Positions 17,286 through 64,000 of a stretch of DNA of 64,000 nt are shown here, piece by piece. Below the pieces are notes generated by a model. It had not been told where the DNA came from. It saw only the letters and a list, made by a program, of their open reading frames with translations, and did not search any database. The position numbers and the translations under genes are program-made. The DNA is from Closterium sp. NIES-65. Taxonomy: Eukaryota > Streptophyta > Zygnematophyceae > Desmidiales > Closteriaceae. The stretch's first letter is position 1. Every line of letters begins with the position of its first letter. The stretch spans positions 1,508,501-1,572,500 of the forward strand of contig CANXME010000320.1 in NCBI GenBank assembly GCA_948144175.1, written 5' to 3'.

Positions 17286-18468
17286 TGCTATCAGAGCAGG
17301 TCGATCCCCTTGGATCGATCCTGTGGGTGGGCTTACCACCTCCTTGCTTCCGCTGCACCTACTATTACTACACTCTGTGCCACACGCCCTGTGGCGTGTG
17401 GCAGTTATTCTTCCCGCCGTGCGCCCCGAGGCGCGCGGCGGTTTTCTTCCCGCCGTGCGCCCCGAGGCACGCGGCGGTTTTCTGCCCGCCGTGCGCCCCG
17501 AGGCGCGCGGCGGTTCTCTGCCCGCTGTGCGCCCCGAGGTGCGCGGCGGGCTTCGGCCCCGTCGGCCGGCGCGTCGCCCTCGGGAGGCGCCGCGACGGGC
17601 GACGGGGACCCGGTCGTCACCCCCCCGTCGCCCGTCGTGGCAGCGCGCGGCCCGTACGGGCTGCGCCAGGCCCGCGGGTCATCCGTACGGGCTGCGCCAG
17701 GCCCGCGCGCGGCCCGTACGGGCGGCGCCAGGCCCGCGCGCGACTCGGGCCGCCTGCGCGCGGCTCGGGCGACCCTACCAGGCTTGTGGTGGGCCCCTTC
17801 CTCGACACCGCCTCCCCCCCCCCCTTTTCCCGTCGCTTGTCGAGGCGACCTGAGGGGGCCGCCCTGGGGGTGGCGGGTGTGTGGTCTCCCCTACTCCTCC
17901 TCCTCCTCTGTCTCCCACTGCTGCAGCTACCGCTGAGGGGGGTGGGTGTGTGGGATTCGACGGAGTGGTGCTAGGGGGTGGGGTGGGAGTGCAGCTAGGG
18001 GTGTAGCAGCGGGTGTGTGTTAGGGGGGTGGGACAGTTTGGGGAAGTTGCACGGAGGTTGCCGTCGAGTCGCCAGCAGCACCTGTATTCCGGGGACTTCG
18101 CCCGGTAGCCCAGTCGTAGCCAGCTGTGCCAGCCGCCCGTGGGTCCGTTGCTCGTCTGCCGCTACTTTAGCCGCGGGGCCTGTTACTCCTGTATTCCGGG
18201 GACTTCGCCCGGTAGCCGCTGTGCGAGTCTGCCTCCTGTTGCCCGTGTGTCTGCAGCTTCAGCCGTCGCCTCCTATCTCCTCTCCCCTCACTCTCTCCTC
18301 CTCCTCACTTGCCCGTTGTGACTACCACTAGCTTTGCTCATAATTGTGAACTCTAAACTATTGCTTCTTGAACTTGTGCTCAGAATGTGTGCTGACATTG
18401 TGATCCACCCTGAGCTTGTACTGCTTTGCCTGCTCTGCTGATTACACCCCACTTTGGCTATGGGGGTG

Positions 18469-18593
18469 TGTCAGAATATTATGCTCTAGCCTGTAGTGGG
18501 GTGCTCTATAGCGAGTACAACCCTTCTAGGGTTTTGCTATTTGTATCCTCATTCCTGCTAGTTCAACTCCTCTTCCTTCTTCTAATTTTGACA
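18469..18593 (+). repeat. 3' LTR of the TRIM
   Basis: 125 bp; differs from the 5' LTR at one base near the start and in the CT-rich tail. Confidence 0.9.
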
Positions 18594-19241
18594 AGAACCT
18601 CCAGCTCCAGTGCCTCCAGCAACAGCACCTCCAGCTCCAGGGACTTCAGCAGCAGTACCTCCAGCTCCAGCGCCTCCAGCAGCTCCAGAACCTCCAGCTC
18701 CAGCGCCACCAATAGCAGCACCCCCAGAACCGGCACCTCGAGCCTCAAGGTCCCCAACTGCAGGGTCGACAGGACCAGCGCCAGGGCCTCCAGCAGCAGC
18801 ACCCGCAGAACTGGCACCTCCAGCTCCAGGGTCTCCAACGCCAGGGTCGACAGCACCAGCTCCAGGGCCTTCAGCCCCAGTACCTCCAGTAGCAGCAACC
18901 CCTGAACCGACACCTCCAGCTTCAGGAGCAGTACCAGTCCCGGCAGCTCCAGTACCTCCAGTACGAGCACCTTTAGGACCAGAGACACCAGCACTCCCAA
19001 CACCTCCACGATGAGCAGCTCCAGCAGCATGACTCCTCAGGTGGGTACGTAACGCAAGCCACTCTCGTGCCTACTGTGGTGAGACAGGTCCACGTCGTAA
19101 AAAGAGACCCAGAGGAACGCGCAGACTCAGCACCCCCAGGCTCCGCACCCTCTGGCACCTCACGGACGGGCTCAGCACCCAGACTCCGCAGCCGCAGGCT
19201 TTGCATCCCCAACAGCACCTCCCGCAGCAGCACCTGAGTCG

Positions 19242-21471
19242 CTAGTGACCTCTACAGGCACAGCTAAGGGGGGCGGGTCTACCTGAGACACACCTCAAGG
19301 AGCACGACCCTGAGGGGGGGAGAGGGTCTGCTAGAGGGGGACCTGGAGCGAGGAAAAGCGACGGGGGAGGGAGAGGGGCAGTGCGGTAGGGGAAGAGACG
19401 GTAGAAAGGAATCGACTCGTCAAAGGTGACGTCCTGAGAGGGGAAGACACGGCGCGAGGTGGGGTGGTAAAACTGCCAGCCAGGCGCATCAGGGACAAAG
19501 CCAAGGAAGACACATGGAATGGTGCGGGAGGAGAGCTTGTCCGCGGACGTATCGCGGACAAGGGCACGAGCACCCCAGACCCGGAAATGCAACGCATCGC
19601 CAACCTCCCCCATCCAACGCAGTGTAGGCGAGGTCTCTGGCAAGGAGACACGGGGCCAGAGGTTGAGCTGCTGCGCGGCGTACCAGACCGCAAACGGCCA
19701 CAGAAAATGGGGAGCCGCCGCATGAATCAACGAGGTATGAGCGACCTCCATGACTAAGCCAATGCGGCGCTCAGCAACCCCATTTTGCTGTGGTGAGCCC
19801 GGAAGCGTGAACGACTGCTCGATGCCCTCCCCCTGACAGAAGGCCCGCAAGAGGTTGGAGGTGAACTCACCACCTCTGCCGGATGCAGACGCAGGACACA
19901 AAGGTCCTGGCGGAACCTGCGGTAGAGCCGGAGACAAACTGCTAGGATCCAAGGGATCAGGACAGCAGGGACCTCACCCTTGGTGCGCAAGGGGAAGACC
20001 GCAGTGTACCGCGAGTAGTCGTCGACAACCAGCAAAAAGTATCGCTCACCGCCCTGTCCACGAACGCGGGTTGGGCCCCACATGTCCAGGTGGAGGGTCT
20101 GCAGAGGAGCCTCTGTGGGGGGAAACGAGGAGTGAGGAGCGGCGCGCAGCCGCCCTCGACGCAAGGAAGGCAGGGCAGTGCAGGCGAGGCAGGGAGGGGA
20201 GGGAGAGACTTGGGAAGACTAGACACAAGGAGGCGACGGTGCATGCCACGTAGACGTGGCAATGAGGGGTGACCCAGGCGGTGGTGCCAGAGAAGAGTCT
20301 GGTGCGACAGAGAGCGACACTCACAAGGGGAGGCTACCTGACCTGACGCAGACACCTGACCAATAGGAGCTACCTGAGGAGGCGCAGTCGTCAGTGTGTA
20401 AAGACTCGACCCTGGCCGACGGGTAAACGTGGCCAGGTGGCGGCCGGTCCGGAAGCACGTACAGATCGCCACACGTTGTCCTCCAGGTGTAAAGGTGTCA
20501 ACCCACTGGTTCTCGAGAACTGCGTTGCTCACCAAGTTCGTATAGAACGAGGGGAGGTGGAAGCCTGTCAGTGAGCCAGACGGAACCACCGGGCACGGAA
20601 GCACAGTGGTGGACCGTGCAAGAACTGGGCCCCCTGAGGGGTCAGCCAGAGAGACTGTAACTGGTGCAGTGAGTGGTGTGAGTGCAGTACTGTCACGAAA
20701 GAAACAGCGGGAAGCACATGAGTCAAGCGTGAAGGTGTGTAAGGCCTCAGCAGGCGCAGTACCTGAGGAAGCAGACTCGCTAGCACCTAAGGCAGCAGCC
20801 TCACTAGCACCTAGAGCAGCAACCTCTATACCGGGGTCGTACTGCACACATGGGTGATAGTCACTCTCAGCACCACCATGCAAAGCAGACATGGCAGTAA
20901 AGATGGCGTCATAGTCTAAAGCAAAGACAGCAACGCCTGACCTAAGCAACTCAAGCCAAGGGGGGATCTCAGCCTCGTCGCCAAACTCTGTGCGCCAAGC
21001 TTCAATCAAATAGGCGAAGCAGAGGGACTGTGCGTGGCCATGTGTCCCACAGGTCTCACCAGCTCGACGACTTGTGCGAATGACGTACGGGCAGCGACCT
21101 GGACTCGGAGACGGCCCACGCTGGTAAACCCACTCACGAAGCTGCCGGGGCGTAAGGGTCGGACGCCGCCGTAGCTGCATTTGGCCACCGCCAGACACTT
21201 CGCACCAAACAGCGTCACAGTGACTGCTACTACGGCCGCCACCACTCCCACTGCTACCACCACCGACGTCACCAGTCCAACCGATACGACAAAGGGAATT
21301 CATGGCGGGCAAGCTAGGAGGAGCGCGACTTCTAGGGCAGTACAGAGTGAAGGCAGTAGCACGAGTAGTAGCAACAGCAGGAAGAGCAGCAGGGCGGCGC
21401 GCGGCCAGAGCAGGGCGGCGTCCAGCCAAAGCAGGGCGGCGCGCGGCCAGAGCAGGGCGACGCGCGGCCAC
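19242..21471 (-). pseudogene. Copia B zinc-like motif, protease and integrase; capsid region absent
   Basis: Reading leftward: leader-derived RRPALAARRPAL repeats pass directly into GGGQMQLRRRP and LTPRQLREW, with no MATPSVLAF-type capsid region. Then come the zinc-like motif CGTHGHAQSLC, LDSCASRCFF (protease site, with Gly of DSG changed to Cys), LLWHHRLGHPSLPRLRG (about 20310-20260), LHLDMWGPTRVRGQGGERY (about 20090), SPQQNGVAERRIG (about 19790) and the C-terminal GWQFYHPTSRRVFPSQDV (about 19480-19430). Frame changes occur near 20125 and 19880. The absence of capsid is shared with F. Confidence 0.85.
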
Positions 21472-21895
21472 AGCAGGGCAGTAGTAGGCAGTAGGGCCTT
21501 TTTTTTAATTATTTTAATTTTATTTAGGGTTTAGCAGGGCGCTGGCGCAGGGCAGGGCGCGGGCACAGGGCAGGGCGCTGGCGCAGGCTGCAGCAGTGCG
21601 TGACGCGAGGGGCAGCAGAGCGCGACGCGACGGGCTGCCTTAGGGCGCGACGCACTGGCTGCAGCAGAGCGCGGCGTGCGAGGCAGCATCGCGCGACTCG
21701 TAGGCCGCCGTAGGGCGCGATGCGCGGGGCAGCAGCGCGCGACGCGCGGGGTGCCATAGGGCGCGACGCGCAGGGCAGTAGCGCGGGCGTAGGGCAGGGC
21801 GCATGCGCAGAGCAAGGCGCTAGGAAGGGCGTGTGCGAGGCAGCGCGACGCGGCAGGGCGTGCGCGGGGTAGCGCGTCGCAAGGTAGTATGGTGG
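21472..21895 (-). repeat. Copia B leader, lower part
   Basis: Repeats such as GCAGGGCGGCGCGCGGCCAGA, and GCGACGCGCGGGG-type words, around a T-rich insert with TTTAGGGTTTAG (about 21500-21536). It continues beyond D at 29387. Confidence 0.65.
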
Positions 21896-22026
21896 TGTGA
21901 AATGTGTAAGCAGGAATGGGAATGACTAAGTCAGAGTTGGGTACAAATACAACCCTAGAAAACTGTACCCCATATGTGCTACCCCACTATAGCCTACAAA
22001 CATGCATCAGCTATGATAATCTGACA
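21896..22026 (-). repeat. 3' LTR of Copia D
   Basis: 131 bp, identical to 29256-29386; on the minus strand TGTCAGATTATCATAGCTG to CATTTCACA. Confidence 0.95.
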
Positions 22027-22050
22027 CACCCCCATAGGCAAAGTGGGGGA
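22027..22050 (-). promoter_or_regulatory. Polypurine-tract hairpin of Copia D
   Basis: On the minus strand CCCCCA, nine loop bases CTTTGCCTA, TGGGGG, then TGTG and the LTR. The plus-strand DNA primer region is short and lies in one arm of the stem. The same hairpin stands before the 3' LTRs of C, E, F and the TRIM. Confidence 0.65.
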
Positions 22051-22237
22051 GAACAAGGGGTCACAAGACCAGTCAAGCAAAGTAAAACAAAGCAAGCTCA
22101 GGGTGGATCACAAAGTCACCACACAGTCCGAGCACAAGAGCAGGGCCAGAGGCCAGTTCACATGCAGGAGTACAGACATATATATAAAACTAGACAAGCA
22201 AGAGCAGGTATATATATATGTCACAGTACAAGTAAAG

Positions 22238-25200
22238 TCAAGAGGAGAGCAAGTGAGGCAAGACAGGCACAAGACCCAGCTGGGTGCAAAAGCGCTGATG
22301 GTCACAAGGCGCGAGTGCCTTGGTGAACACATCAGCAGTGTTGGCCTCAGAGGCCACGTACGCAAGTCGCAACTGACCACGCTGCTGCAGCTCACGAGCA
22401 AGAAAGTAGCGGAGAGCAATGTGCTTCGTTCTGTGCTCCAAGCGCTGCTCTCGACACAAGGCCAGCATAGCCTTGTTGTCTACGTACAGCACTGGAGGAG
22501 AACGAGGCGGCTCTCCAAGGTCAGTCAGCAGGTAGGTGAGCCAGCGAAGCTCCTGTGCAGCCATGGCCCCGGCGTAGATCTCAGCCTCACAACTGGAGCC
22601 GAGAACCGAAGACGAGCGAGTAGACCGCCACGAGACAGAGCCGGAACCAAGGCTGAAGGTGTAGCCCTGTGACGACCGCTGCGTAGCCTGGTCGTCAGCC
22701 TAAGAAGCGTCCGCGTGGCCGGTAAGGACCACTGGACTCCGCCCTCCAAGCACTAGCCCCATGCCCGACGTACTGCACAGGTAGCGCAATACCCTCTTCG
22801 CTGCAGCCATGTGCTCCGGTCTGTGTCTCCCAGGAGCAACATAGCGTGCAAGAATGCTCAGAGGGTATGCAAGGTCAGGTCGTGTGCAGGTCATCAGGTA
22901 CATGAGGCAGCCAACAAGCTCTGCATACGGACCACTCGACTCTACGGACTCATCCGAAGGCAGAGCTGAGAGTGAGTGGCGAGTAGGCAGAGGAGTGGCC
23001 TGAGGCGAGGAGTACGTGAAGCCGAAGCGCTGAAGGACCTGCTGCACCATGTGTGACTGAGTCAAGGTAATGGTGCGGCGTGCTCTGTCCCGAGTGATCT
23101 GCAAGCCAAGGTAGCTGCGCAGTTCACCCAGGTCTGTGCACGTGTGTCTCTTCAGCAGCTCGGACTTCACGTAGGCGAGTCCAGCAGTGTCCGCTGTGGC
23201 AAAGACCAAGTCGTCGACGTACACGAGGATGTAGAACGGCGGCAGGGAAGTGTCGGTGCGAAGAAACAGCGACGGGTCAGCAGTAGAAGGAGCAAACCCA
23301 AGAGCCGCAAGCGTAGTCCTCAGTGTGTCGTGCCACTCACGCGGTGCCTGGCGGAGACCGTAGACTGGCCGTCGGAGGCTCCACTGGGTGCCAGGAGGGA
23401 AAGTCCCAGTGAAGCCAGGTGGACGGCGAAGCCAGATCTCCTCGTGCAGGCTACCCTGCAGGAACGCAGTGCTGAAGTCGAGAGAGTGAAGCTCGTAGTC
23501 GCGCTGAGCGGCTATGTGCAGCAGCACCCGAAGAGTGGTCATCTTCGGGGTGGGAGAGAAGGTCTGAAAGTAGTCGACTCCCTGCCGCTGACTGAAGCCA
23601 CGAGCAACGTACCGTGCCTTGAAGACAGGTGGAGAGCCCGGCGGCCGCTTCACCCTGAAGATCCACATGCCACTGACGATGTTCGCCCCAGGAGGGGAAA
23701 CCGCGTCAACGTAGGTGCCTGTGGACTTCCAGGAAGCCATCTCTGCATCCATAGCTGCCTGCCACTGAGAGGAGTAGGGACCCTCTACGGCCTCCGCGTA
23801 AGAACGCGGAGTCGGGATGTCTAGTGCATCCGGGTCTCCCTCAGGGGCAAGCAGTACAGACGCGAGATGAGGTGAAGCAGCCGCTAGACACTGTAACTCC
23901 TCCTGCCTGTCCTCTAGGACGTCCGTGCCAAGAGCACACTCACCCCCGACGGACGGAGGACAGACAGACTCAGCAACAAGACTAGCAGCGTAGTCGAGAC
24001 GACAGCGGGCAGCAAAGTCAACGAGCTCAGCGACTAGAGCACACGCAGCAGTGGACTCAAAAGAGGGGTCAGTGACGACAGTAGCAAGCAGACGCGTGAC
24101 AGTAGGACTCGCAGCGCGAAGAGAGTCCGACTCAGGGTCGGCAAGCGCAGGAAGAGAGGACTCAGGAGGAGAAGGCAAAGGGGCACGCAGAGGAGCAGTG
24201 GACGGACGCAGAGACATCCGGTGCGTGCCAGGGACAGGAGGAGGACGCTGACGCGAACTGCGACCACTAGCGCGAGCAGCACGAACAGGCGACGCGGGAC
24301 GAGACGCAGGCTCACGACGCTCAGCAAGACCTCCAGTAGGACCAGTGTAAGGAGAGGGAGCAGGCAGTGGAGAGGAAGGCTCCAGTAGGGACTGCGACTG
24401 GACAGGCGGTGGACCCTCTACTGGAGGAGAAAGACCAAGAACCTGCTGCAGGAGCGGAACGAAGTACGGCCGAGGCCGCGCGGCAGCTCCAGACTCAGCA
24501 GGGACAGCACCAGCACCCTCAGCTACAGCACCAGCGCCACCCACACCTCCAGCGGCAGGACCAACAGCAGCAGGCTCAGCACGAACGCCCTCAGCAGCTC
24601 CAGCTCCAGGAGGACCCGCAGGTCCAGCAGCTCCGGGACCGGCAGCACCCGCACCCTCGACGGTCGAAGAAGCTCCAGCTCCAGCACCAGCAGCACCTCC
24701 AGACTCAGCAGCACGCCTCCAGCGGCGAGCGAACCACTCGCGCAGCTCCTGTGGAGAGAGGGGCTCCCGGCGAGACGCAGCAGCAGGAGAAACCCCAGGC
24801 TCAGCAGCTCCAGACGCAGCACCCCCAGGCTCAGCAGCTCCCAGCTCAGCACCCCCAGGCTCAGCAGCTCCCGACCCAGCACCCCCAGACCCAGCACCTC
24901 CAGGCACAGCACCCCCCGGCTCAGCACCCCCAGGCTCCGCACCCTCAGGAGTAGCACCCTCAGGCCCAGCACCCCCAGCCGTAGCACCCCCAGGCTCAGC
25001 ACCCCCGCGCACAGCACCCCCAGAGTCAGCACCCCTAGGCTCAGCACCCGCAGCAGCACCAGAGTCACCAGTAACCTCGACCGGGTCAACGGCGTCTACC
25101 TGGGACACACCTGAGGGGGCAGGAACCTGAGGGGGGAGGGGGTCTACCGGGGGGGGAACCGGCACAAGGAAGTCCGGGGGAGGGGGGAGGGAAGGAGTGC

Positions 25201-28139
25201 GGTGGGGGAAGAGACGGTAGAAGGGGACTGACTCGTCGAACGTGACGTCCTGGGAGGACAGAACACGACGAGAGGAGGGGTGGTAAAACTGCCACCCTGG
25301 GGCGTCAGTGGGGAAGCCAAGGAAGACACAGGGAGCAGCACGAGGGGACAGCTTGTCCGCAGACAAGTCGCGGACAAACGCCCGAGATCCCCAGACACGG
25401 AACACAGACGCATCGCCAACCTTCCCCGTCCACAGCAAGACTGGGGACATCGCAGGCCGAGAGACCCGGGGGTGAAGGTTGAGCTGATGCGCCGCGTACC
25501 TCACCGCAAACGGCCACAGAAAATGGGGGGCAGCCGCATGCATCATGGACGTACGAGCGACATCCATGACCATGCCAATGCGGCGCTCAGCAATCCCATT
25601 TTGCTGTGGTGAGTCCGGAAGGGTGAAGGTCTGGCGGATCCCCCGTGCACGACAGTAGTCCCGCAGAAGGCGAGAAGAGAACTCTTCGCCTCTGTCAGAG
25701 TGCAGACGCAGAACAGGAAAGTCCGAGCCGAAGCTCTTCCTGAGCTGGAGACGAGCCTCGCGGATCCAGTCGATCAGCACCTCAGTGACCGCACCCTTGC
25801 TGCGCAAGGGGAGGACTGTGGTGTAACGCGAGTAGTCGTCAACCACCAACAGGAAGTAGCGCTCGTAACCCTGCCCACGGACGGGGGCTGGGCCCCACAC
25901 ATCCATGTGAAGCGTCTGCAAGGGAGCCTCTGTCGGGGGGAAGTGGGAGGAGTGAGGAGTAGCCCGGAGGCGACCCTCGACACAGGGGACACAGGAAGGT
26001 CCTGGCCCGGAGGGGAGAGGAGGGAGAGACTGGGGAAGACCAGAGACAAGGACACGGGAAGCCATGCTCCGAAGACGGGGCAAGGAGGGGTGGCCAAGAC
26101 GGTGGTGCCACAGGAGAGTCTCGTGAGACAGGAGGCGACAAGAACAGGGGGCAGACTCAGGACCTGACCGGGACGCAGCAGCAAGTACCTGACCCGACGC
26201 AGCCACCTGACCAGACGCAGGGACAGGAGGAGACTCAACGGTCAGGGTGTAGAGACTCGACCCCGGCCGACGCGAGAACGTGGCCAGGTGTCGGCCTGTG
26301 CGTGCCTCCGTGCAGTGGGTCACCCGCTGACTCGCAGGAGTGAACTGGTGAACACCCCCATCCTGCAGGTCCGCTCCACTCACCAAGTTCGTGGAGAACG
26401 AGGGAAGGTACAGACCCGACAGGGTGCCCGAAGGGGCAGCCGGACACGGGAGGACAGTGGAGAAGTGAGACAGGACAGGACCTCCAGAGGGGTCAGCAAG
26501 GGAGACTGCAACCGGCCGGCCGAGCGGCGTAAGGGTAGTGCGGTCGCGAAAGAAGGAGCGAGAAGCTCCGGAGTGAAGTGTGAAAGTGAGGGAGGACGAG
26601 GACGACGCAGTACCTGAGAGCGCAGTCTCACCAGTACCTGAGAGCGCAGACGCACTGGCACCTAGAGCAGCAGCCTCACAAGCACCTAGCGCAGCAGTAC
26701 CAATGCCCGGGTCGGGCCGGAAACAACGGTAACCCTCATTCTCCTCACTATAATCCACAACATACATAGCAGTAAGGATAGCATCAAAATCAAGATCAAA
26801 GATCGCTACACCAGCCCTGAGAAGCTCATCCCAGCGAGGGATCTCACTAGCCCCAGGGAACTGCTGACGCCAGGCGTCCGTCAGGCGGCCAAAGCAGCGC
26901 TGGGTGGCGTGGGCACCCCCACACTGCTCACCCGCGCGGTCGCCGGAACGAAGAACGTAGGTGCAGGGACCAGTACCCCCACCCCTCTGACGCCCAGCGT
27001 ACCACTCACGAAGCTGCTGAGGCGAAGGGATGTCCCGCGAGCGCTGCTGCTGCTGCCGGTGCGAGCGCTGGCCACCACCACCACCGCTACGCTGCTGGGT
27101 ACCACCCCGACCAGCTCCACCTCCTCCACCACCACTGCCTCCTCCGCTGCCGCCTCCACCGCCTCCACCTCCGCCGCCTCCACCTCCGCCGCTGCCTCCA
27201 CCACCACCGCTGGCTCCACCACCACCGTCTCCGCCGCTGCCGCCACCACCACCACCACCACCTCCGCCACTAGTCCCGCCGCCACCCCCACTCCCTCCGC
27301 CGCCACCGCCGCCACCGCCACCGCCCCCTCCAGCTCCACCCGCGCCCTTGCCCCCCTTGCCCTTGCTTGAGCGACGTCTCCCACTAGGGGCAGACGCCGC
27401 GCCGACCGACTCAAGACCAAGCAGGTCGGCAGCAGCAGCAGAGGCAACAGAGGGCAGCAAGGGGGAAGGAGAGCACCCCTCAAAGATGGGGGTGCGAGGG
27501 TCACCACGAGAAGCACCTACAGCGACTATGCTCTTCTCCGCTGCAAGGAGGGACTTCTCGAGGAGGTCGACGGTGAGGGTGGTGGGACAGACTGCGAGAA
27601 AGTGGTCCCTGACTACGCGAAGGGAGTCAGGGAGGCGCGCGACTACGTAGTAGAGAGCGATGTACATGGGGGGGGGGGTTCTTAGCGCAGAACTCAGCAG
27701 GAAGGGCGGCGCGGTAGCGAGTGTCACTAGTGCGGAGGTGCGTAATGAGGTCAGCGACAGTGGGAAAGGCAGAGAGGTCAGGAAAGAGGTAGGGAAGCAT
27801 GAGACGGCTCAGTGCAGCAGTGGCAGGGGAGGAGTAGCGCGCAACTACAGCGTCGTACAAGGTCTGAGCACTCTTGTACTGACTAAAGTGCGCACGCTCA
27901 GAGGTAGGGAGGTGGCGACGCACAGCAAGACGTGCAGCAGCATCGCGGGTGGCCCACTTAGAGCGGACAGCGGGATCAGCATCAGCAGCAGGAGCAGGAG
28001 AGGCGCCAGAGGTGAGGTCAAAGAGAGAAAGGTCGTCAGCCCTGTCGCACTGTAAGTACAGCTGCAGGTCGTCTAACCAGACCTCAAAATCAATGGCGCG
28101 ACCCTCAGCGTCAAAAGCTAGGACACTAGGGGTAGCCAT
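22238..28139 (-). pseudogene. Copia D Gag-Pol polyprotein (about 1,970 codons), two breaks
   Basis: Start ATG at 28139 (MATPSVLAFDAEGR). Capsid-like Gag runs to about 27420, a Gly-rich linker to about 27080, and the zinc-like motif CTYVLRSGDRAGEQC then GGAHATQRCF is at about 26970-26900. Protease (about 26590) reads LHSGAS, with His for the catalytic Asp. LLWHHRLGHPSLPRLRS is at about 26115 and the integrase is at about 25960-25560 (MDVWGP, LHSDRGEEF, NGIAERRIG). A GGAEPGGA linker follows (25100-24400), then RT with LDFSTAFLQGSLHEEIWL (about 23480) and ILVYVDDLVFATADT (about 23230), then RNase H. Breaks: a run of ten G (27668-27677) shifts the frame inside NPPPMYIALYY, and TAG at 22700-22702 replaces the Trp of DASWADDQ. 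It stops with TGA at 22238. Confidence 0.93.
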
Positions 28140-28179
28140 GGCGACGACAGCGACGCAGTGCAAGCAGTAGGGAAAGAGC

Positions 28180-29213
28180 TCGCAGTGGCAGTGGGACTGT
28201 GCTCACCAGGCAGGGCAGGTCGAGTAGGGATGCAGAAAGGCGGCTCAGCGACCTGGCGGTTGGGTGCTGGGCGGCTCGGGCGCAGGGCGGCTCGGCTCCC
28301 GGGCGGCTCGGCGGCAGGGCAGCTCGGGGGCAGGGCGACTCGGCTCCCGGGCGGCTCGGCGACAGGGCGGCTCGGGCGGCTCGGCGACAGGGCGGCTCGG
28401 GTGCAGGGCGGCTCGGCTCCCGGGCGGCTCGGCTGCAGGGCGGCTCGGCTCCCGGTAGTAGGGGGGGGGGGGGGGGGGGGCCGCGGTCGAGCAGGCGGCC
28501 GGGGCCGCGGTAGTAGCTGGCGGCGAGGCCGTGCGAGCAGGCAGCCGGGGCCGCGACAGGAGCGGGCGGCGGGGCCGCGGTCGAACAGGCGGCTGGGGCC
28601 GCGGTCGTAGCAGGCGGCCGGGGCCGCGATCGTAGTGGGCGGCGGCCGCGGCGTAGCGGGCGGCAGGGCCGCGTCGAGCAGGCGGCTGGGGGCTGCGTCG
28701 AGCAGGCGGCTGGGGGCCGCGACAGGAGCGGGCGGCGGGGCCGCGGTCGAACAGGCGGCTGGGGCCGCGGTCGTAGCAGGCGGCCGGGGCCGCGGTCGTA
28801 GCAGGCGGCGGCCGCGGCGTAGCGGGCGGCAGGGCCGCGTCAAGCAGGCGGCTGGGGGCCGCGTCGAGCAGGCGGCTGGGGGGGGGGGCCGCGACAGGAG
28901 CGGGCGGCGGGGCCGCGGTCGAACAGGCGGCTGGGGGCCGCGGTCGTAGCAGGCGGCCGGGGCCGCGGCGTAGCGGGCGGCAGGGCCGCGTCGAGCAGGC
29001 GGCTGGGGGCCGCGTCGAGCAGGCGGCTGGGGGCCGCGTCGAGCAGGCGGCTGGGGCCGCGTCGAGCAGGCGGCTGGGGCCGCGTCGAGCAGGCGGCTGG
29101 AGCCGCGATCGTAGCGGGCGGCTGGGGCCGCGACTTAGCGGGAGGGAGGCGACACGGAGGGTCGCTCGATAGCGGAAAAAAAAGGTTGAGCGCGCCTCGG
29201 GGCGCGCTTCGGT
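28180..29213 (-). repeat. GC-rich repeat leader of Copia D
   Basis: GGGCGGCTCGG-type units (28250-28450), a run of about 18 G (28461-28480), then GCGGGCGGCAGGGCCGCGTCG / GAGCAGGCGGCTGGGGGCC repeats to about 29110. Same position as in A, E, F and G, but with its own repeat units. Confidence 0.75.
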
Positions 29214-29255
29214 GGGCCCTAGGCAGAGTTCCACAGGGAACCCGCTCTGATACCA
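29214..29255 (-). promoter_or_regulatory. Copia D primer-binding site, hairpin and GGGCCC
   Basis: TGGTATCAGAGCGGG directly follows the LTR. Hairpin GTTCC/GGAAC at 29228-29232 with 29237-29241, then GGGCCC at 29214-29219 and a GCGCGCC-CGAG-GCGCGC hairpin just beyond (about 29190-29208). Confidence 0.75.
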
Positions 29256-29386
29256 TGTGAAATGTGTAAGCAGGAATGGGAATGACTAAGTCAGAGTTGG
29301 GTACAAATACAACCCTAGAAAACTGTACCCCATATGTGCTACCCCACTATAGCCTACAAACATGCATCAGCTATGATAATCTGACA
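29256..29386 (-). repeat. 5' LTR of Copia D
   Basis: 131 bp, identical to the 3' LTR. Confidence 0.95.
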
Positions 29387-29391
29387 GGTGG

Positions 29392-29654: not shown

Positions 29655-29783
29655 CCAAATCTGCGTTATAGGCAGCTACGCTTTCAAAATACGTTATTAA
29701 AAAAAAAAACACTTCGAATGTTTAAAAATTATCATATTTAGAAAGCTTGCTTTTTATAATTATCATTCGGCGTCGTTCTCAAT

Positions 29784-33673: not shown

Positions 33674-33760
33674 TGGTATGAGAGCAGGAGAGTTTACGAT
33701 CTCCTAGTCTTACAAATCCTCAGTCATCGAAGCCTTCATTATCGGGGCTAACTTACAGTC

Positions 33761-35260: not shown

Positions 35261-35279
35261 GCTCCTTCATTCTAGCTAC

Positions 35280-45880: not shown

Positions 45881-45893
45881 AAACAAATGCGGT

Positions 45894-45936
45894 GGGCCCT
45901 AAGAACAGTTCCCACGAGGGAACCTCCTCGATACCA
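45894..45936 (-). promoter_or_regulatory. Copia E PBS, post-PBS hairpin and GGGCCC
   Basis: TGGTATCGAGGAGG beside the LTR, then hairpin GTTCCC-TCGT-GGGAAC read on the minus strand (45908-45923), then GGGCCC (45894-45899). Confidence 0.75.
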
Positions 45937-55090: not shown

Positions 55091-55221
55091 TGTCAGAACA
55101 TTATAGCTTATGCTGTTGTGTAGGCTGTAGTGGGGTATCCCATAGGGGGTACAACCCAATTAGGGTTAGTACTTGTACCCACTTCTTCCATAATTCATCC
55201 ATTCTCGTTTCAGTTTTCTCA
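55091..55221 (+). repeat. 5' LTR of Copia F
   Basis: 131 bp, TGTCAGAACATTATAGCTT to TTTTCTCA; core GGCTGTAGTGGGGTATCCC. Confidence 0.93.
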
Positions 55222-55264
55222 TGGTATCGAGCAGGTTCCCTCGTGGGAACTGTTCCTAGGGCCC
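55222..55264 (+). promoter_or_regulatory. Copia F PBS, post-PBS hairpin and GGGCCC
   Basis: TGGTATCGAGCAGG, then hairpin GTTCCC-TCGT-GGGAAC (55235-55250), then TGTTCCTA and GGGCCC (55259-55264). Confidence 0.78.
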
Positions 55265-55299
55265 TACTACTGCTTCCGCTGCTACTCGATCTGTCGCAC

Positions 55300-56020
55300 G
55301 CCCCGTGGCGTGCGACCTATTTTGGCGCGCGGCGATCTTCTTTCTGGCGCGCGCCCCGAGGCGCGCGGCCCCGCTACCCCGTCGCGCCGCCCTAGCGGCC
55401 GCGTCGCGCCGCCCTCGCGGCCCCGATCCGCCGCCCTAGTGGCCCCGTCACCTACCCCTGCGGCCTCAGCGCCGCCCTTCCCGGCCCCGGCTCCGCCCTT
55501 CCCGACCCCGGCGCCACCTCGGCTGGCCCCGTCGCCTACCCCGGCGACCCCGACGCCACTCTTCCCGACCCGGCCCCGCCTCTGCTGGCCCCGTCGCCTA
55601 CCCCTGCGGCCCCGGCGCTGCCCTTCCCGGCCCCGGCGCCGCCTCTGCTGGCCCGGTCGCCTACCCTGCGGCCCCGGCGCCGCCTCTGCTGGCCCCGTCG
55701 CCGCTCCACCCGGCCACGCCGCCGTCCCCAAGCGGCCCCGCCGTCACCACCGAGCCGCCGGCGCCGCCGACCTAGTGCCGAGCCGCCCGAGCCACCCGAG
55801 CCGCCGAGTCGCCGAGCCGCCGAGCTGCAGTTGCTGCCGAGCCGACGTACCGCCGAGCCGCCCGAGCCGCCGAGCCGCCAAGCCGCCCGAGTCGCCTGAG
55901 CCGCCGAGCCGCCCGAGTCGCCCGAGCCGCCGAGCCACAGTTGCTGCCGTGCCGCCGTGCCGCCGAGCCGCCCGAGCCGCCCGCACCGCCGAGTCGCCGA
56001 GTCGTCGAGCCTGCTCTTCC
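55300..56020 (+). repeat. GC-rich repeat leader of Copia F
   Basis: CCCCGTCGCCTACCC / GCGCCGCC units to about 55760, then GAGCCGCCGAGCCGCC units to about 56010. Frames across it give Pro/Ala/Arg repeats. Confidence 0.72.
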
Positions 56021-56099
56021 CACCACTGGTGAGCCCCTGCCTTACTACTTGGCTGCCTGCCTTACTGCTGCTACTCCTGCTCTTGCTTCTACTGGCGGA

Positions 56100-59000
56100 G
56101 CCAGATGCAGCCCCAGCGACGTCCAAGAGTCCCTCTCGCCCCAGCAGCTGCGTGAGTGGTACGCTGGTTGGGGTTGTAGGGGTGGTGGCGCTACTACTGC
56201 TACTACTACTGGCGACGGCCAGATGCAGCTCTAGCGACGCCCATGCGGGTCTCTCACGCCCCAGCAGCTTCGTGAGTGGTACGCTCAGAGTAGAGGGTCT
56301 CTCAGTTCTGTTCGCTGCTCTTACGTGATTTGCACTGGTGCTCGGACTGGTCAGCCTTGTGGGACGCCTAGTCACACACAGTCACGCTGCTTCGCCCGTC
56401 TGAGCGACGCCTGGCGTACCGAGTTTGGCGACAAGGCTGAGCTCCCCGACTGGGTGGAGTTGCTTAGGCAGAGGGTAGATATATTTGCTCTTGACTATGA
56501 TGCTATTCTCACTGCCATGTATGCTTTGCCTACTAGTGCTGACCGTGCCGGTCAGCTGTGCGTACCGCCTGACCCAGGAATAGAGCCTGCTGCTCTAGCT
56601 GCTGGTGAGGCTGCTGCTTTGGGTGCTAGTGAGTCTCCTGCTCCAGGTACAGGTGCGGCTGCTGCTCTAGGTGCTAGTGAGTCTGCTTCCTCAGGTGCTG
56701 GTGAGTCTGCGCTCTCAGGTACTGCGTCGGCTTCGGCCTCCCACACATTCACACTTGACTTGGGGGCTTCTCGCTCCTTCTTTCGAGACCACACCACACT
56801 CACGCCGCTTGGTCGGCCAGTTGCAGTCTCCCTGGCAGACCCCTCTGGGGGTCCTGTCCTTGCTCACTTCTCCACTGTCCTCCCGTGTCCGGCGGCCCCC
56901 TCTGGCACCCTGTCTGGTCTTTACCTCCCCTCGTTCTCTACGAACTTGGTGAGTGGTGCTGACCTACAGGATGCGGGGGTTCACCAGTTCACTCCTGCGA
57001 GCCAGCGGGTGACCCACTGCAAGGACGCTTGGACGGGCCGACACTTGGCCACGTTTACTCGTCGGCCGTGGTCGAGCCTGTACACACTGACCACTGCGTC
57101 CCCTCCAGCCATTGCGTCTGCTCAGGTAGCTGCGTCGGGTCAGGTGTTTGCTGCAGCGTCCAGGTCTGGTCCTGAGTCTGCCCCCTGCTCGTGTCGCCTC
57201 CTGTCTCACGAGACTCTCCTCTGGCACCACCGCCTTGGTCACCCCTCCCTGCTTTGTCTCCGAGGCATGGCCTCCCGTGTCCTTGTCTCTGGTCTTCCCC
57301 GGTCCCTCCCTCCCCTTCCTCCAGGGCCTGGCCCTACCTGCGTCCCCTGTGTCGAGGGGCGGCAGCGGGCTGCCCCTCACTCCTCCCAGTTTCCTCCGAC
57401 AGAGGCTCTGCTGCAGACGCTTCACATGGACGTGTGGGGCCCGGCCCGCGTCCGTGGACAGGGTCACGAGCGCTACTTCCTGCTGGTGGTTGACGACTAC
57501 TCGCGTTACACCACAGTCTTCCCCTGGCGCAGCAAGGGTGATGTCACAGAGGTGTTGATCGACTGGATCCGCGCAGCTCGTCTCCAGCTCAGGCGGAGCT
57601 TCGGCTCGGACTTTCCTGTTCTGCGTCTGCACTCTGACAGAGGCGGAGAGTTTTCCTCTGGCCTTCTGAGAGCCTACTGTCACGCACGAGGCATCCGTCA
57701 GACCTTCACGCTTCCGGACTCCCCGCAGCAAAATGGGATTGCTGAGCGCCGCATTGGCATGGTCATGGACGTCGCCCGTACGTCCATGATGCATGCGGCT
57801 GACCCCCATTTCCTGTGGCCGTTTGCGGTCCGGTACGCGGTGCATCAGATCAACCTTCAGCCCAAGGTCTCCATGCCAAAGACCTCCCCTGCTTTGCTGT
57901 GGACGGGGAAGGTTGGCGATGCGTCTACGTTCCGTGTCTGGGGATCTCGGCGTTTGTCCGCGACTTGTCTGCAGACAAGTTGTCCCCTCGTACTGCTCCT
58001 TGCGTCTTCCTGGGTTTCCCCCCTGACGCGCCAGGGTGGCAGTTCTACCACCCCACCTCTTGCCGTGTTCTGTCCTCCCAGGACGTCACGTTCGACGAGT
58101 CGGTCCCCTACTACCGTCTCTTCCCCTACCGCACTCCGTCCCTCCCCCAGCCACCACTCTTCCTTGTGCCAGGTCCCCCCACGGTAGACCCCCTCCCCCC
58201 TCAGGGTCCTGCCCCGGTAGACGCTCTTGAGCCTGTCGAGGTCGCTGGTGACTCTGGTGCTGCTGAGGGTGCTGAGCCTAGGGGTGCTGACTCTGGGGGT
58301 GCTAGGCGTGTGGGTGCTACGCCTGGAGGTGCTGAGCCTGGGGGTGCGGAGCCTGAGGTAGCTGGGCCTGCTCGTGTGGCGACTGGCGGTGCTGTGCCTG
58401 GCAGTACTTCGGGTGCTTCGTCTTGCTGGGAGCCAATCTCTCCACAGGAGCTGCGTGAGTGGTTTGCCCGGCGCTGGAGGCGAGCTGCTGGAGCTGGAGG
58501 TGCTGCGGGTACTGGAGGTTCTACTGCTGCTGAGGGTCCTGGTGCCGCGGGTCCCGGAGGTGCTCGTACTGGGAATCCTGGAGCTGCTGGGCGTGCGGGT
58601 ACTTCTGGAGCTGGAGCTGCTGCGGGAGTTGGCGCAGAGGCTACTGCTGTCGGTCCTGGAGGCGGTCCTGCTGGGGGTGCTCCTGGTGCTGCTGGAGGTA
58701 CTGGAGCTGGAGGTGTTGCTGGTGCTGGTGCTGCCGCTGGGGGTGCTGAGCCTGGGGGTGTTGTGCCTGGGGGTGCTACGCCTGGGGGTGCTTTGCCTGG
58801 GAGTGCTACACCTGGGGGTGCTGAGCCTGGGGGTACTGTGCTTGGAGGTGCTACGCCTGGAGGTTCTCCGGGTGCTTTGTCTCTGCGGGAGCCACTCTCT
58901 CCACAGGAGCTGCGCGAGTGGTTTGCCCGGCGCTGGAGCCGTGCTGCTGGAGCTGGAGGTTCTTCGGCTACTGAGGGTGCTGCTGTCGCGGGTCCCGGAG

Positions 59001-61480
59001 GTGCTCGTAGTGTTAGTACTGGAGCTGCTGGGCCTGCGGGTTCGACTGGAGCTGGTGCTGCTGAGGGTGTTGGCGTTGAGACTACTGCTAACGGTCCTGC
59101 TGGGGGTACTCCTGGTGTTGCTGGAGGTTCTGGAGCTGCTGGAGGTGCTGCTGGAGCGGGCGCTCCTGCTGGGGGTACTGGTGCTGTCCCTGCTGTGTCT
59201 GGCGTTGCCGCGCAGCCCCGACATTACTTCGTTCCACTCCTGCAGCAGGTTCTTGGTCTTTCGCCTTCTACTGGTCCTCCTCCTCCTCCCTTAGAGTGTC
59301 CACAGCCTGTCCCGTCGCAGTTACAGTTATTGCCAGCCTCCCCACTTCCTGCTCCTTCTCCCTACACTGGTCCTACTGGAGGTCTTCCTGAGCGTCGTAA
59401 GCCTGCGTCTCGCCCTGCGTCGCCTGTCCGTGCTGCTTGCACTAGTGGTCGTGGTTCGCATCAGCGTCCTCCTCCTGTCCCTGGCACGCACAGGATGTCT
59501 TTGGGTCCCTCCACTGCTCCTCTGCGTGCCCCTTTGCCTTCTCCTCCTGAGTCCTCTCTGCCTTCTCTTGCCGACCCGGAGTCGGAATCTCTTCGTGCTG
59601 CCAGTCCTACTGTCACGCGTCTCCTTGCTACTGTCGTCACTGACCCTTCCTTTGAGTCCACTGCTGCGTCTGCCCTAGTTGCTGAGCTCGTAGACTTTGC
59701 TGCTCGCTGTCGCCTAGACTACGCTGCTAGTCTTGTCGCTGAGTCTGAGTCTGTCTGTCCTCCATCCGTTGGGGGTGAGTGTGCCCTTGGCACGGACGTC
59801 CTTGAGGACAGGCAGGAGAAGTTCCAGTGTCTGGCTGCTGCTTCACCTCATCTCGTGTCCGTACTGCTTACCCCTGAGTGAGACCCGGATGCACTTGACA
59901 TCCCGACTCCGCGCTCTTACGCGGAGGCGATAGAGGGTCCCTACTCCTCTCAGTGGCAGGCAACTATGGACGCAGAGATGGCTTCCTGGAAGTCCACAGG
60001 CACCTACGTTGACGAGGTTCCCCCGCCTGGGGCGAACATCGTCAGTGGCATGTGCATCTTCAGGGTGAAGCGGCCGCCGGGTTCTCCGCCTGTCTTCAAG
60101 GCATGGTACGTGGCTCGTGGCTTCAGTCAGCGGAAGGGAGTTGACTACTTTCAGACCTTCTCTCCCACCCCGAAGATGACCACTCTTCGGGTACTGCTGC
60201 ACGTTGCTGCTCACCGTGACTACGAGCTACACTCTCTTGACTTCAGCACTTCTTTCTTGCAGGGCAGCCTGCACGAGGAGATCTGGCTGTGCCGCCCACC
60301 TGGCTTCACTGGGTCGTTCCCTCGTGGTACCCAGTGGAGTCTCCGGGGTCCAGTCTACGGTCTCCGCCAGGCGCCACGTGAGTGGCACAACACACTGAGG
60401 ACTACGCTTGCGGCTCTTGGGTTTGCTCCTTCTACTGCCGACCCATCGCTGTTTCTACGCACCGACATCTCTCTGCCGCTGTTCTACATCCTCGTGTACG
60501 TCGACGACTTGGTATTTGCCACAGCTGAGACTGCTCGACTCGCCTACGTGAAGTCCGAGCTGCAGAAGAGACACACGTGCACAGACCTGGGTGAACTGCG
60601 CAACTACCTTGGCTTGCAGATCACCCGGGACAGAGCACGCCGCACCATTACCCTGACTCAGTCACATATGGTGCAGCAGGTCCTTCAGCGCTTCGGCTTC
60701 ACGTACTCCTCGCCTCAGGCCACTCCTCTGCCTACTCGCCAGTCGCTCTCAGCTCTGCCTTCGGATGAGTCCGTAGAGTCGAGTGGCCCGTATCCAGAGC
60801 TTGTTGGCTGCCTCATGTACCTGATGACCTGCACACGACCTGACCTTGCATACCCTCTTAGCATTCTTGCACGTTATGTTGCTCCTTGGAGACACCGACC
60901 AGAGCACATGGCTGCAGCGAAGAGGGTGTTGCGCTACTTGTGCAGTACGTCGGGCATGGGGCTAGTGCTTGGAGGGCGCAGTCCAGTGGTCCTCACTGGG
61001 CACGCAGACGTTTCTTGGGCTGACGACCAGGCTACGCAGCGGTCGTCACAGGGTTACACCTTCGGCCTTGGTCCCGGCTCTGTCTCGTGGCGGGCTACTC
61101 GCTCGTCTTCTGTTCTCGGCTCCAGTTGTGAGGCTGAGATCTACGCTGGGGCTATGGCAGCACAGGAGCCTCGCTGGCTCACCTACCTGCTGACTGACCT
61201 CGGAGAGCTGCCTCGTTCTCCTCTAGTTCTGTACGTAGACAACAAGGCCATGATGGCCTTGTGTCGAGAGCAGCGACTGGAGCATAGAACAAAGCACATT
61301 GCTCTCCGCTACTTCCTTGCTTGTGAGCTACAGCAGCGTGGACAGTTGCGGCTTGCGTACGTGGCCTCTGAGGCCAACACTGCTGATGTCTTCCCCAAGG
61401 CACTTGCGCCTTGTGATCATCAGCGCTTCTGCACTCAGCTGGGTCTTGTCCCTGTCTTGCCTCACTTGCTCACCTCTTGA
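56100..61480 (+). pseudogene. Copia F zinc-protease-integrase-RT-RNase H polyprotein
   Basis: SLSPQQLREWYAG appears twice (about 56130 and 56255), with a TAG between the copies after GDGQMQL. Zinc-like CGTPSHTQSRCFARL is at about 56360. The protease is LDLGAS (Ser of DSG replaced by Leu, about 56755), then LLWHHRLGHPSLLCLRG (about 57225), integrase with MDVWGPARVRG, LHSDRGGEFSSGLL and NGIAERRIGMV, a GGAEPGGA linker (58250-59200), RT with LDFSTSFLQGSLHEEIWL (about 60240) and ILVYVDDLVFATAET (about 60490), and RNase H to TGA at 61480. Loss of one G near 57947 shifts the integrase frame; TGA at 59879-59881 replaces a Gly. From 59966 the RT-RNase H part is uninterrupted. Confidence 0.92.
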
Positions 61481-61659
61481 CCTTTCTTGTACTGTTACAT
61501 ATATTTATACCTGCTCTCGCTTGTCTAGCCTTATATATATATGTAATCCTGCATGTGAACTGGCCTTGTGGCTTTGAACTTGTGCTCGGAATGTGTGGTG
61601 ATTTTGTGATCCACCATGAGCTTGCTTTGCTTTGCTTTGCTTGACTGGTCTTGTGACCC

Positions 61660-61690
61660 CCTGTTCTCCCCCATTTTGCCTATGGGGGTG
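61660..61690 (+). promoter_or_regulatory. Polypurine-tract hairpin of Copia F
   Basis: CCCCCA-(9 nt, TTTTGCCTA)-TGGGGG directly before TGTG and the 3' LTR. Confidence 0.65.
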
Positions 61691-61821
61691 TGTCAGAACA
61701 TTATAGCTTATGCTGTTGTGTAGGCTGTAGTGGGGTATCCCATAGGGGGTACAACCCAATTAGGGTTAGTACTTGTACCCACGTCTTCCATAGTTCATCC
61801 ATTCTCGTTTCATTTTTCTCA
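61691..61821 (+). repeat. 3' LTR of Copia F
   Basis: 131 bp; three substitutions against the 5' LTR. Confidence 0.93.
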
Positions 61822-62769
61822 GTCAACGGCCGCCGTCACTGTTGGTTGGTGATGCAAGAAATAAATCAGGCTCGGAGTGGCCCATTGGTTTCATTTGCAG
61901 CTCGCCGTGGCCTCGCCAGTTGCAGAAGCATGCTTCACCCAGCAAACGGCCGGACATGGACACACACTCTGGGTTGAGTGCCTCCGCTCCGCCTCAAACA
62001 TAACCCTCGTTTTGACCCAGTGGGTAGCGAGGTGTTACATCAGAGGCGGTGCGTGGTGGCGAGGTGGGATGTCGTGGCCCGTGGGATACCATTGAGGGCT
62101 CGTCAGGTCGCATAGAAACTACCGAACTCGCAGAAGTAACCACGAAGCCGTTTCTTTTAGCGAGGATGGGGCGAACCGGTTTTGTTACTGCAACTACCCT
62201 CCAACAAGCGCATGCGCGTCGAACGAGCAGTCAGCGGAAGTATTTCAATGGGACGGAGCAGCAAACTCGCCGGTTAGCGTTCCTCTTTCCGACGCTGCTA
62301 TTTGCGCCTCTTGCTCCGCTACTAGGTGCGGCAAAGTACATGCTCCCCAAACGCATCGACACAGTAGATCTACATTGCCAGATTCCTAGGTCCCAGAAGC
62401 TTCCCGAAAGTATCCCGCGAGAGACATTCGGGACATTTTGCAACCCCATCCCGAAAGTGTCCTTTGGGAAGTCTGTGGTGACGTTTCAAAGAGTCTTGAA
62501 ACCATCCCGCAGGACTCTTTTGAACTGGCTCGAAAGTCTTTTTCGGGACTGACGTGGACATTTCCAGGACATTAGGAGGACACATTTGGGACGAGTCACG
62601 AGCCAATCACCTTTGAGCGCGGTTCGGATATATGCGGTTCGGAATTCGTGGGTATGGACATGCGGTCCAACATTTCGATTTGATATACACGCCCTCAGTA
62701 CAACATTAAAACTACATAATATATATTGTTTACAAAATATCTTCAACAGAATTACACTGGTGAACATTT
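61822..62769. other. Intergenic stretch, no gene seen
   Basis: Frames are short and without motifs. 62395-62560 repeats words such as CCCGAAAGT and GGGACATTT. It is continuous with the sequence left of 55091 across the F target site. Confidence 0.45.
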
Positions 62770-64000
62770 TGTCGAACTTATATACTATAGTCTGTTTAGG
62801 CTGTAGTGGGGTAGACAATATGGGGTCCAACACTTTAGGGTTTCCTACTTGTACTCCTCATGCTGCTCAATGCAATCATTCCTTCCTCAGATTCTCACAT
62901 GGTATAGAGCAGGTTCCCTAGTGGGAACGCTTCCTAAGGGCCCACCTCTAAAAAAAAATTCTGCCCGGAGCGCGCTCCTCTCCTGCCCGAGTCGCGCCCC
63001 GTGTGCCCTCCCTCCCGTCGCGTCCTAGCCCTTGGCGGCCCGTCGCGCCCTCCTCAGGCCCCTAGCGGCCCCTTTCGCGGCCCCTCGCGGCCCCTCTCAC
63101 GGCCCTGTCGCCGCCCTGCCGGCCCCATTGCCGACCCTAGCGGCCCCGTAGCCGACCCTAGCGGCCCCGTCGCCACCCTGACGGCCCCGTTGCCGACCCT
63201 AGCGGCCCCGTAGCCGCTCTAAGCGGCCCCGTCGCCGCCCTATCGGCCCTGTCGCCGACCCTTGCGGCCCCGTTGCCGCCCTAAGCGGCCCCGTCGCCGC
63301 CTTATCGGCCCCGTCGCCGACCCTTGCGGCCCCGTCGCGGCCCTACGCGGACCCGTCACCGCCCTATCGGCCCCGTCGCCGACCCTTGCGGCCCCGTCGC
63401 CCCGTCGCCGCCCTAAGCGGCCCCGTCGCTGCCCTATCGGCCCCTTCGCTGCCCTATCGGCCCCGTCGCCGACCCCTGCGGCCCCGTCGCCGCCCTAAGC
63501 GGCCCCGTTGCCGACCCTACCGGCCCCGTCGCTGCCCTACCGGCCCCGTCGCCGCCCTAAGCGGCCCCGTTGCCGGCCCTACCGGCCCCGTCGCCGCTCT
63601 ACCGGCCCTGTCGCCGCCCTAAGTGGCCCCGTCGCCGACCCTACCGGCCTTGTCGCCGCCCTCAGCGGCCCCGTTGCCGCCCTGCCGGCCCCGTCGCCGA
63701 CCCTAGCGGCCCGGTAGCCGCCCTCAGCGGCCCCGTCGCCGCCCCTTCACGGCCCCGTCGCCGTCTCTACCGGCCCCTTCAACGTCGCTAGCAGCCCAGC
63801 AGCCGAGGCGCCCGCCAACCGAGCCGCCGAGCCGCCCAGCAGCCGAGCCGCCAAGCCGCCCAGCAGCCAAGCCGCCGAGCCGGCCAGCCGCCAAGCAGCC
63901 CAGCAGGGGAGCCGCTGAGCTGCCCAGCAGCTGAGCCGCCGATCCGCCCAGCAGCCGAGCCGCCGAGCCACCGAGCCGCCCAGCAGCCGAGCCGCCGAGC
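62770..64000 (+). mobile_element. Copia element G, 5' LTR and leader (cut by the window end)
   Basis: LTR 62770-62899 (TGTCGAACTTATATACT to TTCTCACA; core GGCTGTAGTGGGGTAGAC). PBS TGGTATAGAGCAGG at 62900. Hairpin GTTCCC/GGGAAC at 62913-62918 with 62923-62928, then GGGCCC at 62938-62943. From 63000 the GC leader has GGCCCCGTCGCCGCCCT units, changing near 63800 to GAGCCGCCCAGCAGCC units. No gag is reached. Confidence 0.85.

Follow-up and report, generated by a model that had tools for sequence, protein, structure and literature searches.

Leaders complementary to the priming initiator tRNA-Met in a Closterium Copia lineage and its miniature relatives

What keeps a short hairpin beside the primer binding site (PBS) of a retrotransposon in shape while its bases change? 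The question is raised by a 64-kb stretch of the Closterium sp. NIES-65 genome (contig CANXME010000320.1, positions 1,508,501 to 1,572,500; the window hereafter, numbered from its first letter), which holds several long terminal repeat (LTR) elements, with one Copia lineage (elements A, D, E, F and G) and one terminal-repeat retrotransposon in miniature (TRIM). A first-pass annotation had described small stems directly 3′ of the PBS, followed in five elements by a GGGCCC palindrome, and had guessed at a packaging or dimerisation signal. We found that the complementarity to the host initiator tRNA-Met (tRNA-iMet) does not end with the 12-nt PBS: the stretch that follows is complementary to a large part of the remaining tRNA. 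Judged from the sequence, the leader is probably a multi-part docking site for the primer tRNA in this lineage and its TRIMs, with a self-pairing hairpin in place of T-arm pairing.

Elements of the window and their leaders

The Copia assignment comes from element D, in which a reading-frame piece matches RVT_2 (PF07727, E = 7e-51; D being the element searched) and the integrase (rve, PF00665, E = 1.7e-12, at 25000-26050, minus strand) precedes the reverse transcriptase (22930-23827, minus strand); pieces of A, E and F are 81-86% identical to D at the DNA level. LTR matches found in the window are 126-137 nt long, and the paired LTRs are 100% (131 nt), 97.7% (131 nt) and 99.3% (137 nt) identical in D, E and F, respectively. 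No LTR pair was found within the window for A, G or fragment H, of which A and G sit at the window ends. The TRIM (17160-18593) is short, with paired LTRs and a PBS, and was judged to lack gag-pol from its 1.4-kb length and self-comparison, although a mechanical 260-aa frame exists at 17192-17974. The parts of the leaders are as follows.

3567..3578, minus strand: PBS of element A, one mismatch
3549..3564, minus strand: post-PBS hairpin of A, GTCCC/GGGAC
3532..3540, minus strand: GGGCCCACC of A, complement of the tRNA-iMet anticodon-stem side
17160..17285, plus strand: 5′ LTR of the TRIM, 96% identical to 18469-18593 over 126 nt
17286..17297, plus strand: PBS of the TRIM, with TGC instead of TGG
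17301..17318, plus strand: hairpin of the TRIM, TCGATCC/GGATCGA
17323..17340, plus strand: GTGGGTGGGCTTACCACC of the TRIM, a gapped match to the anticodon-arm complement, in place of GGGCCC
17346..17356, plus strand: GCTTCCGCTGC of the TRIM, complementary without mismatch to 11 nt of the D arm of tRNA-iMet
18469..18593, plus strand: 3′ LTR of the TRIM
29256-29386 and 21896-22026: LTR ends of element D
29244..29255, minus strand: PBS of D
29228..29241, minus strand: hairpin of D, GTTCC/GGAAC
29211..29219, minus strand: GGGCCCACC of D
33674..33705, plus strand: PBS-like site of fragment H with stem AGGAGA/TCTCCT (33686-33705), judged unrelated to the group
45926..45936, minus strand: PBS of element F, degenerate
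45908..45923, minus strand: hairpin of F, GTTCCC/GGGAAC
45891..45899, minus strand: GGGCCCACC of F
55222..55232, plus strand: PBS of element E, one base shorter than the 12-mer
55235..55250, plus strand: hairpin of E, GTTCCC/GGGAAC
55259..55264, plus strand: GGGCCC of E, followed by TACTAC
55272..55282, plus strand: GCTTCCGCTGC of E, D-arm complement
62900..62910, plus strand: PBS of element G, degenerate
62913..62928, plus strand: hairpin of G, GTTCCC/GGGAAC
62938..62946, plus strand: GGGCCCACC of G

Every stem reported by the first-pass annotation, in A, D, E, F, G, the TRIM and H, was located directly 3′ of the PBS, and the GGGCCC placed within about 20 nt of the stem in A, D, E, F and G lies 8-9 nt downstream of it. 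H differs in sequence, with no tRNA-complement match and no GGGCCC, and was rejected as a member of the group. The module, hairpin plus tRNA complement, is common to the TRIM and the gag-pol elements.

Complementarity to tRNA-iMet beyond the primer binding site

The PBS 12-mer is the complement of the 3′ end of the host tRNA-iMet plus CCA; D carries it exactly, A and the TRIM with one mismatch, and E, F and G with one base missing or changed. In the searched genome (874 Mb in 2400 contigs, the window included) it occurs at 17,425 places, against 8 for the reversed control 12-mer. Two further pieces of the tRNA-iMet reverse complement follow in the leaders: GGGCCCACC, present in A, D, F and G, which starts with GGGCCC and is complementary to the anticodon-stem side, and GCTTCCGCTGC, present in E and the TRIM, which is complementary to the D arm. 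Read backwards, the tRNA runs from acceptor and T stem through T arm and variable loop to anticodon stem and D arm, and the leaders follow it in step with PBS, hairpin, GGGCCCACC and, in some families, GCTTCCGCTGC. Leader blocks complementary to further primer arms, as in Ty1, are found at the level of sequence. The plant tRNA used for these comparisons is identical over nt 1-72 to six host iMet genes; most of the 30 host genes fetched that differ from it belong to a second isotype, commoner than the first, whose T stem is CGAGG/CCTCG.

When 90 nt of each leader, PBS letters excluded, was aligned to the tRNA complement and compared with 2000 shuffles, no shuffle reached the real score for E or the TRIM and two did for F; H and the PBS at 16525 gave no tRNA-complement match in this test. 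A scan of both window strands, likewise without PBS letters, placed the TRIM first (score 55) and E second (50), the best of eight shuffled queries reaching 39.

Leaders were sampled genome-wide in three ways. A sample blind to the leader took 72 of the first 100 listed of the 17,425 PBS places, on contigs C1-C10 with about half on C10, L178 being dropped (site at a contig end). Two variants of the PBS/leader junction, CATGGTATCAGAGCAGGT and CATGGTATCAGAGCGGGT, occur at 1,861 and 330 places, of which 40 and 20 were taken in listing order, skipping 6 and 3 already sampled; by eye, 39 of the 40 and 19 of the 20 have the lineage type of leader. The junction- and similarity-chosen samples are not unbiased, and the unbiased one comes from few contigs.

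Because plus-strand copying of the primer normally stops at the modified A58, the complement of tRNA nt 1-57 was tested alone on the 125 distinct leaders of all samples pooled. The 71 lineage leaders had a mean z of 4.27, with 49 above 3, compared to a mean of 0.67 and one above 3 for the 54 other leaders; the reversed query exceeded z 3 in none of the 71 and one of the 54. The sole other leader above z 3 with the true query, L207, carries GGCCCAC and may be a diverged lineage member (it counts as ‘other’ in this test, and as lineage in the stem count and primer-specificity scores below). With the eight best host iMet variants, lineage leaders had mean scores of 30.6-32.4. Their scores were 14.5-18.4 when 13 non-host tRNAs were used and 16.3-16.8 with two host tRNA-Ser genes, and other leaders scored 16.0-17.5 with the same eight iMet variants; the match is therefore specific to the primer. 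Because global alignment matches type I leaders too readily in the D block, it was not used for them.

Searching the genome with the tRNA gave 34 matches, two of which are LTR end/PBS/leader junctions reaching the CCA that tRNA genes lack. One, on C822, matches at 90% over 50 nt through the T arm, variable loop and anticodon arm, and the other, on C1779, at 81% over 62 nt through the T arm, anticodon stem and D arm. The C1779 leader in turn matches 28 genome places at 79-100%, after which come tRNA-iMet genes in the opposite orientation (E = 2.5e-7). At L248 (G000 C822:285400-287000) the best tRNA imprint runs into what appears by eye to be a C-terminal Copia reverse transcriptase, and it therefore looks like an internally deleted copy. 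Rfam at the gathering threshold gave nothing relevant on the window, and no relatives were found in viral contigs and prokaryote genomes; 169 PBS 12-mers taken as chance sites scored at most 31 against the tRNA complement.

A hairpin that keeps its pairing while its bases change

A perfect stem of at least 5 bp starting within leader nt 1-5 is present in 36 of 49 distinct lineage leaders, compared to 2 of 43 others and 2.1% of shuffles. The two others are H and L196, the latter by eye a truncated leader of the lineage type. For the 49 leaders distinct over their first 26 nt, the mean folding energy (25 °C) was -11.28, as against -8.61 in 2282 half-swap chimeras, each with its 5′ and 3′ halves taken from different leaders; the real mean was not reached in any of 2000 permutations. 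Pairs read from the predicted fold, in 44 of the 49 leaders, vary at four adjacent positions: C-G 24 and U-A 17 at nt 5, C-G 34 and G-C 5 at nt 6, C-G 23, U-A 10 and A-U 6 at nt 7, and C-G 18 and U-A 8 at nt 8. Together, stem excess, half-swaps and pair types support a selected hairpin with compensatory changes, which is covariation in the plain sense, kinship not being modelled; on these terms the first-pass claim of conserved pairing with changing bases holds. By inspection, the helix corresponds to a pairing of GGTTTC with GGGACC that is latent in the tRNA complement, and not to the mirrored T stem.

Conservation within families

Among 30 TRIM copies (of 41 genome matches, taken by similarity to one query, the window copy included), variable sites number 0 of 12 in the PBS, 1 of 27 in the hairpin, 2 of 21 in the anticodon part and 0 of 11 in the D block, or 3 of 71 over the module, as against 14 of 30 in the next nucleotides, 28 of 60 in those following and 56 of 80 in the LTR end. 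In a second family, 21 copies made up of the C1779 leader and 20 of its other 27 places, variation is lowest in the D block GCTTCCGCT (pairwise difference 0.041), followed by the GGGCCCACC stretch (0.094), the PBS (0.126), the next 25 nt (0.127), the following 30 nt (0.242) and the LTR end (0.390). Conservation of sequence thus falls on the blocks that would lie opposite the invariant tRNA, and conservation of shape on the part between them.

All 30 of these TRIM copies start their PBS with TGC. Rewriting from the tRNA in each cycle therefore does not explain the conservation of this subfamily, which suggests that its module is inherited from the element and not recopied. The same TGC, mismatching the universal CCA end, was seen in several families (window 17286-17297, L361, L362, L366, L368, L371-L375 and L377). 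The text consulted of a plant TRIM survey (PMC4717578) names the PBS 12-mer once.

The E leader stretch (window 55210-55305) recurs with 100% identity over 96 nt at no fewer than 28 genome places, including the window copy, which suggests a recent burst. At G000 C320:132687-135527, four E-type leaders stand in a row (99% over 96 nt) at a spacing of 915 bases, suggesting a tandem array of a short element.

The GGGCCC palindrome is not the conserved unit

GGGCCC occurs within 90 nt at 10 of 72 PBS sites, 31 of 40 CATGGTATCAGAGCAGGT sites and 19 of 20 CATGGTATCAGAGCGGGT sites (L323 and L327, which belong to the half-swap, tRNA nt 1-57 and stem sets, stand outside the classifier used for these counts). 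It extends as GGGCCCACC in 9 of 10, 28 of 31 and 19 of 19 of these cases, or 56 of 60, the next letters being ACC as in the tRNA complement. Of the nine CATGGTATCAGAGCAGGT sites without it, seven are TRIM-type (GGGCTT, GGGTTA, GGACTT), one (L323) has AGGCCC and one (L300) is by eye unrelated; L344 is the only such CATGGTATCAGAGCGGGT site. The palindrome as conserved unit was accordingly rejected in favour of GGGCCCACC.

Proposed explanation

Our preferred explanation is that the priming tRNA-iMet supplied, as its reverse complement and since reworked, the 45-75 nt of leader that follow the PBS. The leader RNA would bind its primer at up to three places, the PBS at the 3′ end, GGGCCCACC at the anticodon stem and loop start, and GCTTCCGCTGC at the D arm, and could thereby select or hold the tRNA; the pattern suggests that these elements grip the primer at several points and not one. 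The part facing the T arm would have become a hairpin that pairs with itself, and since that part self-pairs and its flanks face the tRNA, the former would be kept in shape and the latter in sequence. TRIMs, apparently gene-less, would have retained the module since they depend on the same primer. The tRNA complement probably had one origin or a few, in which reverse transcription ran beyond position 58 of the primer, with selection retaining pieces of it since then; the long complement in the C822 and C1779 families suggests such an origin by copying of the primer itself. The full history, in which the lineage captured a nearly whole primer tRNA copy by reading past modified base 58, made of it a docking site with three points, in which a hairpin stands in for the T-arm contact, and kept and reshaped it across many autonomous and TRIM families, is one that we put forward tentatively, as a possible course of events.

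Several observations weigh against this explanation. Leaders A (11/2000 shuffles) and D (34/2000) match the tRNA complement weakly and G (219/2000) is not significant alone, and in the window scan F (36) falls below two non-PBS places (39 and 37), A (32) is lower and D and G are outside the 30 best places. The Rfam tRNA model found no match in the E and TRIM leaders on either strand at E = 10. Only 0 of 72, 9 of 40 and 1 of 20 sampled sites contain GCTTCCGCTG, which leaves the majority of leaders with no more than two of the three contacts, and because the leaders share descent, counting them does not count independent events. TGC is not general in TRIMs, as nine TRIM-type leaders retrieved with a TGG pattern carry TGG. 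Taken singly, the window leaders have unremarkable folding energies (z -0.07 to -1.78), the 37-nt minimum-energy fold of A, D, F and G pairs through GGGCCC without the stem, and GGGCCC is predicted to be able to pair inside the leader in free RNA; with GGGCCCACC bound by the tRNA, the hairpin would be free to form. Finally, the primer tRNA sequence of Ty1 is reportedly not inherited, which would make an origin by copying unusual.

Alternative explanations

If an ancestor merely captured a primer tRNA copy beside its PBS and the remnants now decay with no present role, the collinear matches over 50 and 62 nt in C822 and C1779 and the graded loss across families would fit. Decay should be even, yet in two families the D block and hairpin vary less than the LTR end and most downstream sequence, and the hairpin covaries in the plain sense, so we consider such a fossil imprint unlikely. 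A signal of the kind guessed at in the first-pass annotation, here taken as a hairpin bound by Gag and a GGGCCC that pairs two genomes, would account for the kept hairpin shape, its sharing with TRIMs, and the excess of GGGCCC (10/72, 31/40, 19/20) over six decoy palindromes, of which GCGCGC comes nearest (6, 21, 16). However, GGGCCC lies outside the hairpin loop, so the proposed self-complementary dimerisation loop fails, and no conserved palindrome in an exposed loop, as a dimer initiation site would have, was found; what is conserved is the longer GGGCCCACC. The window TRIM and its nearest copies keep the tRNA-complementary frame and not the palindrome (GGGCTT, GGGTTA), so dimerisation through GGGCCC is not supported, though the TRIM-type leaders L307 and L337 do carry it. 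We rate the combined signal as quite unlikely; a packaging role of the hairpin itself is possible.

It is a good deal less plausible that what is kept is a tRNA-like shape adopted by the leader or the strand opposite it, and not pairing with the primer. An anti-tRNA could in principle mirror the cloverleaf, and by eye several TRIM copies contain TTGC-TTCCGCT-GCAA, which could fold as a short anti-D stem, but Rfam found no tRNA in the E or TRIM leader, ARAGORN found none in the window, L248 or L249, and by inspection the hairpin register differs from a mirrored T arm. Chance similarity would be helped by the GC-rich, low-complexity composition of the leaders, by their unremarkable single-sequence folds and by the non-PBS window places that reach 39. 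It is nevertheless scarcely credible, given that shuffles, other PBS families, the reversed query and decoy tRNAs do not reproduce the match, and that a genome search with one leader arrives at the tRNA-iMet genes themselves. We thus retain the multi-part docking site as the probable explanation.

Other families with the same primer binding site

The exact PBS 12-mer also occurs beside other leaders. A further copy in the window (16514-16525, minus strand) has no lineage leader and carries GGGTTCGAATCCC, a B-box-like sequence that follows, exactly or closely, 13 of the 72 sampled PBS sites; sites of this type include the window copy, L170, L189, L200, L202, L204, L206, L215, L216 and L267. Just before the PBS, 10 of these 13 have TGGTCTAGTGG or a close variant, which is A-box like, and with A-box-like sequence before and B-box-like sequence after the PBS, the junction of LTR and PBS may lie inside a Pol III promoter of the tRNA type. 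ARAGORN found no tRNA in the loci tested, L204 not being among them. By eye, L208, the site at 200 in L215 and the site at 558 in L199 appear to be mosaics at the PBS, joining a Copia-like LTR end to a B-box leader or an A-box LTR end to a GGGCCCACC leader, as if families recombined there. The commonest leader among the 72 sites, again by eye, is TGCGTTATAGTGATCCTCG, preceded by an LTR whose last letters are not CA; this leader is found in many of L179-L188 and L250-L267 and lacks tRNA complement.

Relation to known systems and significance

The closest likeness is to Ty1, with its PBS and Box 0, Box 1 and Box 2.1: a Copia-type element, an initiator tRNA-Met primer and extra post-PBS blocks in the leader. 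Ty1's own blocks are 6-7 nt long and complementary to the T or D hairpins, whereas the Closterium blocks, identified from sequence, are 9-11 nt, stand in tRNA order and include the anticodon stem; a hairpin covarying in the plain sense lies between the PBS and the first block, and the best two leaders match over 50-62 nt. The plant elements BARE1 and BARE2 have packaging and dimerisation signals in the leader that are shared with elements lacking genes; unlike there, the palindrome is not supported as a conserved feature in the Closterium leaders. In Ty3 the acceptor, T and D arms of the initiator tRNA contact the element RNA (PMC5371799). Its PBS is bipartite, with the second part about 4800 nt away in U3, whereas the Closterium module lies entirely within 75 nt. 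Helenus TRIMs resemble ours in carrying tRNA-related sequence; as far as the consulted parts of PMC10886601 go, theirs is a tRNA-like Pol III promoter in the LTR, for which complementarity was looked for and not found, while in Closterium an antisense sequence lies after the PBS, and it is the primer itself to which it corresponds. No description of an anti-tRNA leader of this kind in plants was found in the titles and abstract openings of the open-licence literature.

These leaders touch on two old questions: by what means, outside the short PBS, LTR elements of the plant type select a primer tRNA and keep hold of it, and whether the sequence of a primer is heritable. The 1,861 and 330 junction places form a natural alignment in which a fixed host RNA marks the blocks that may pair with the tRNA and those that may pair with themselves.

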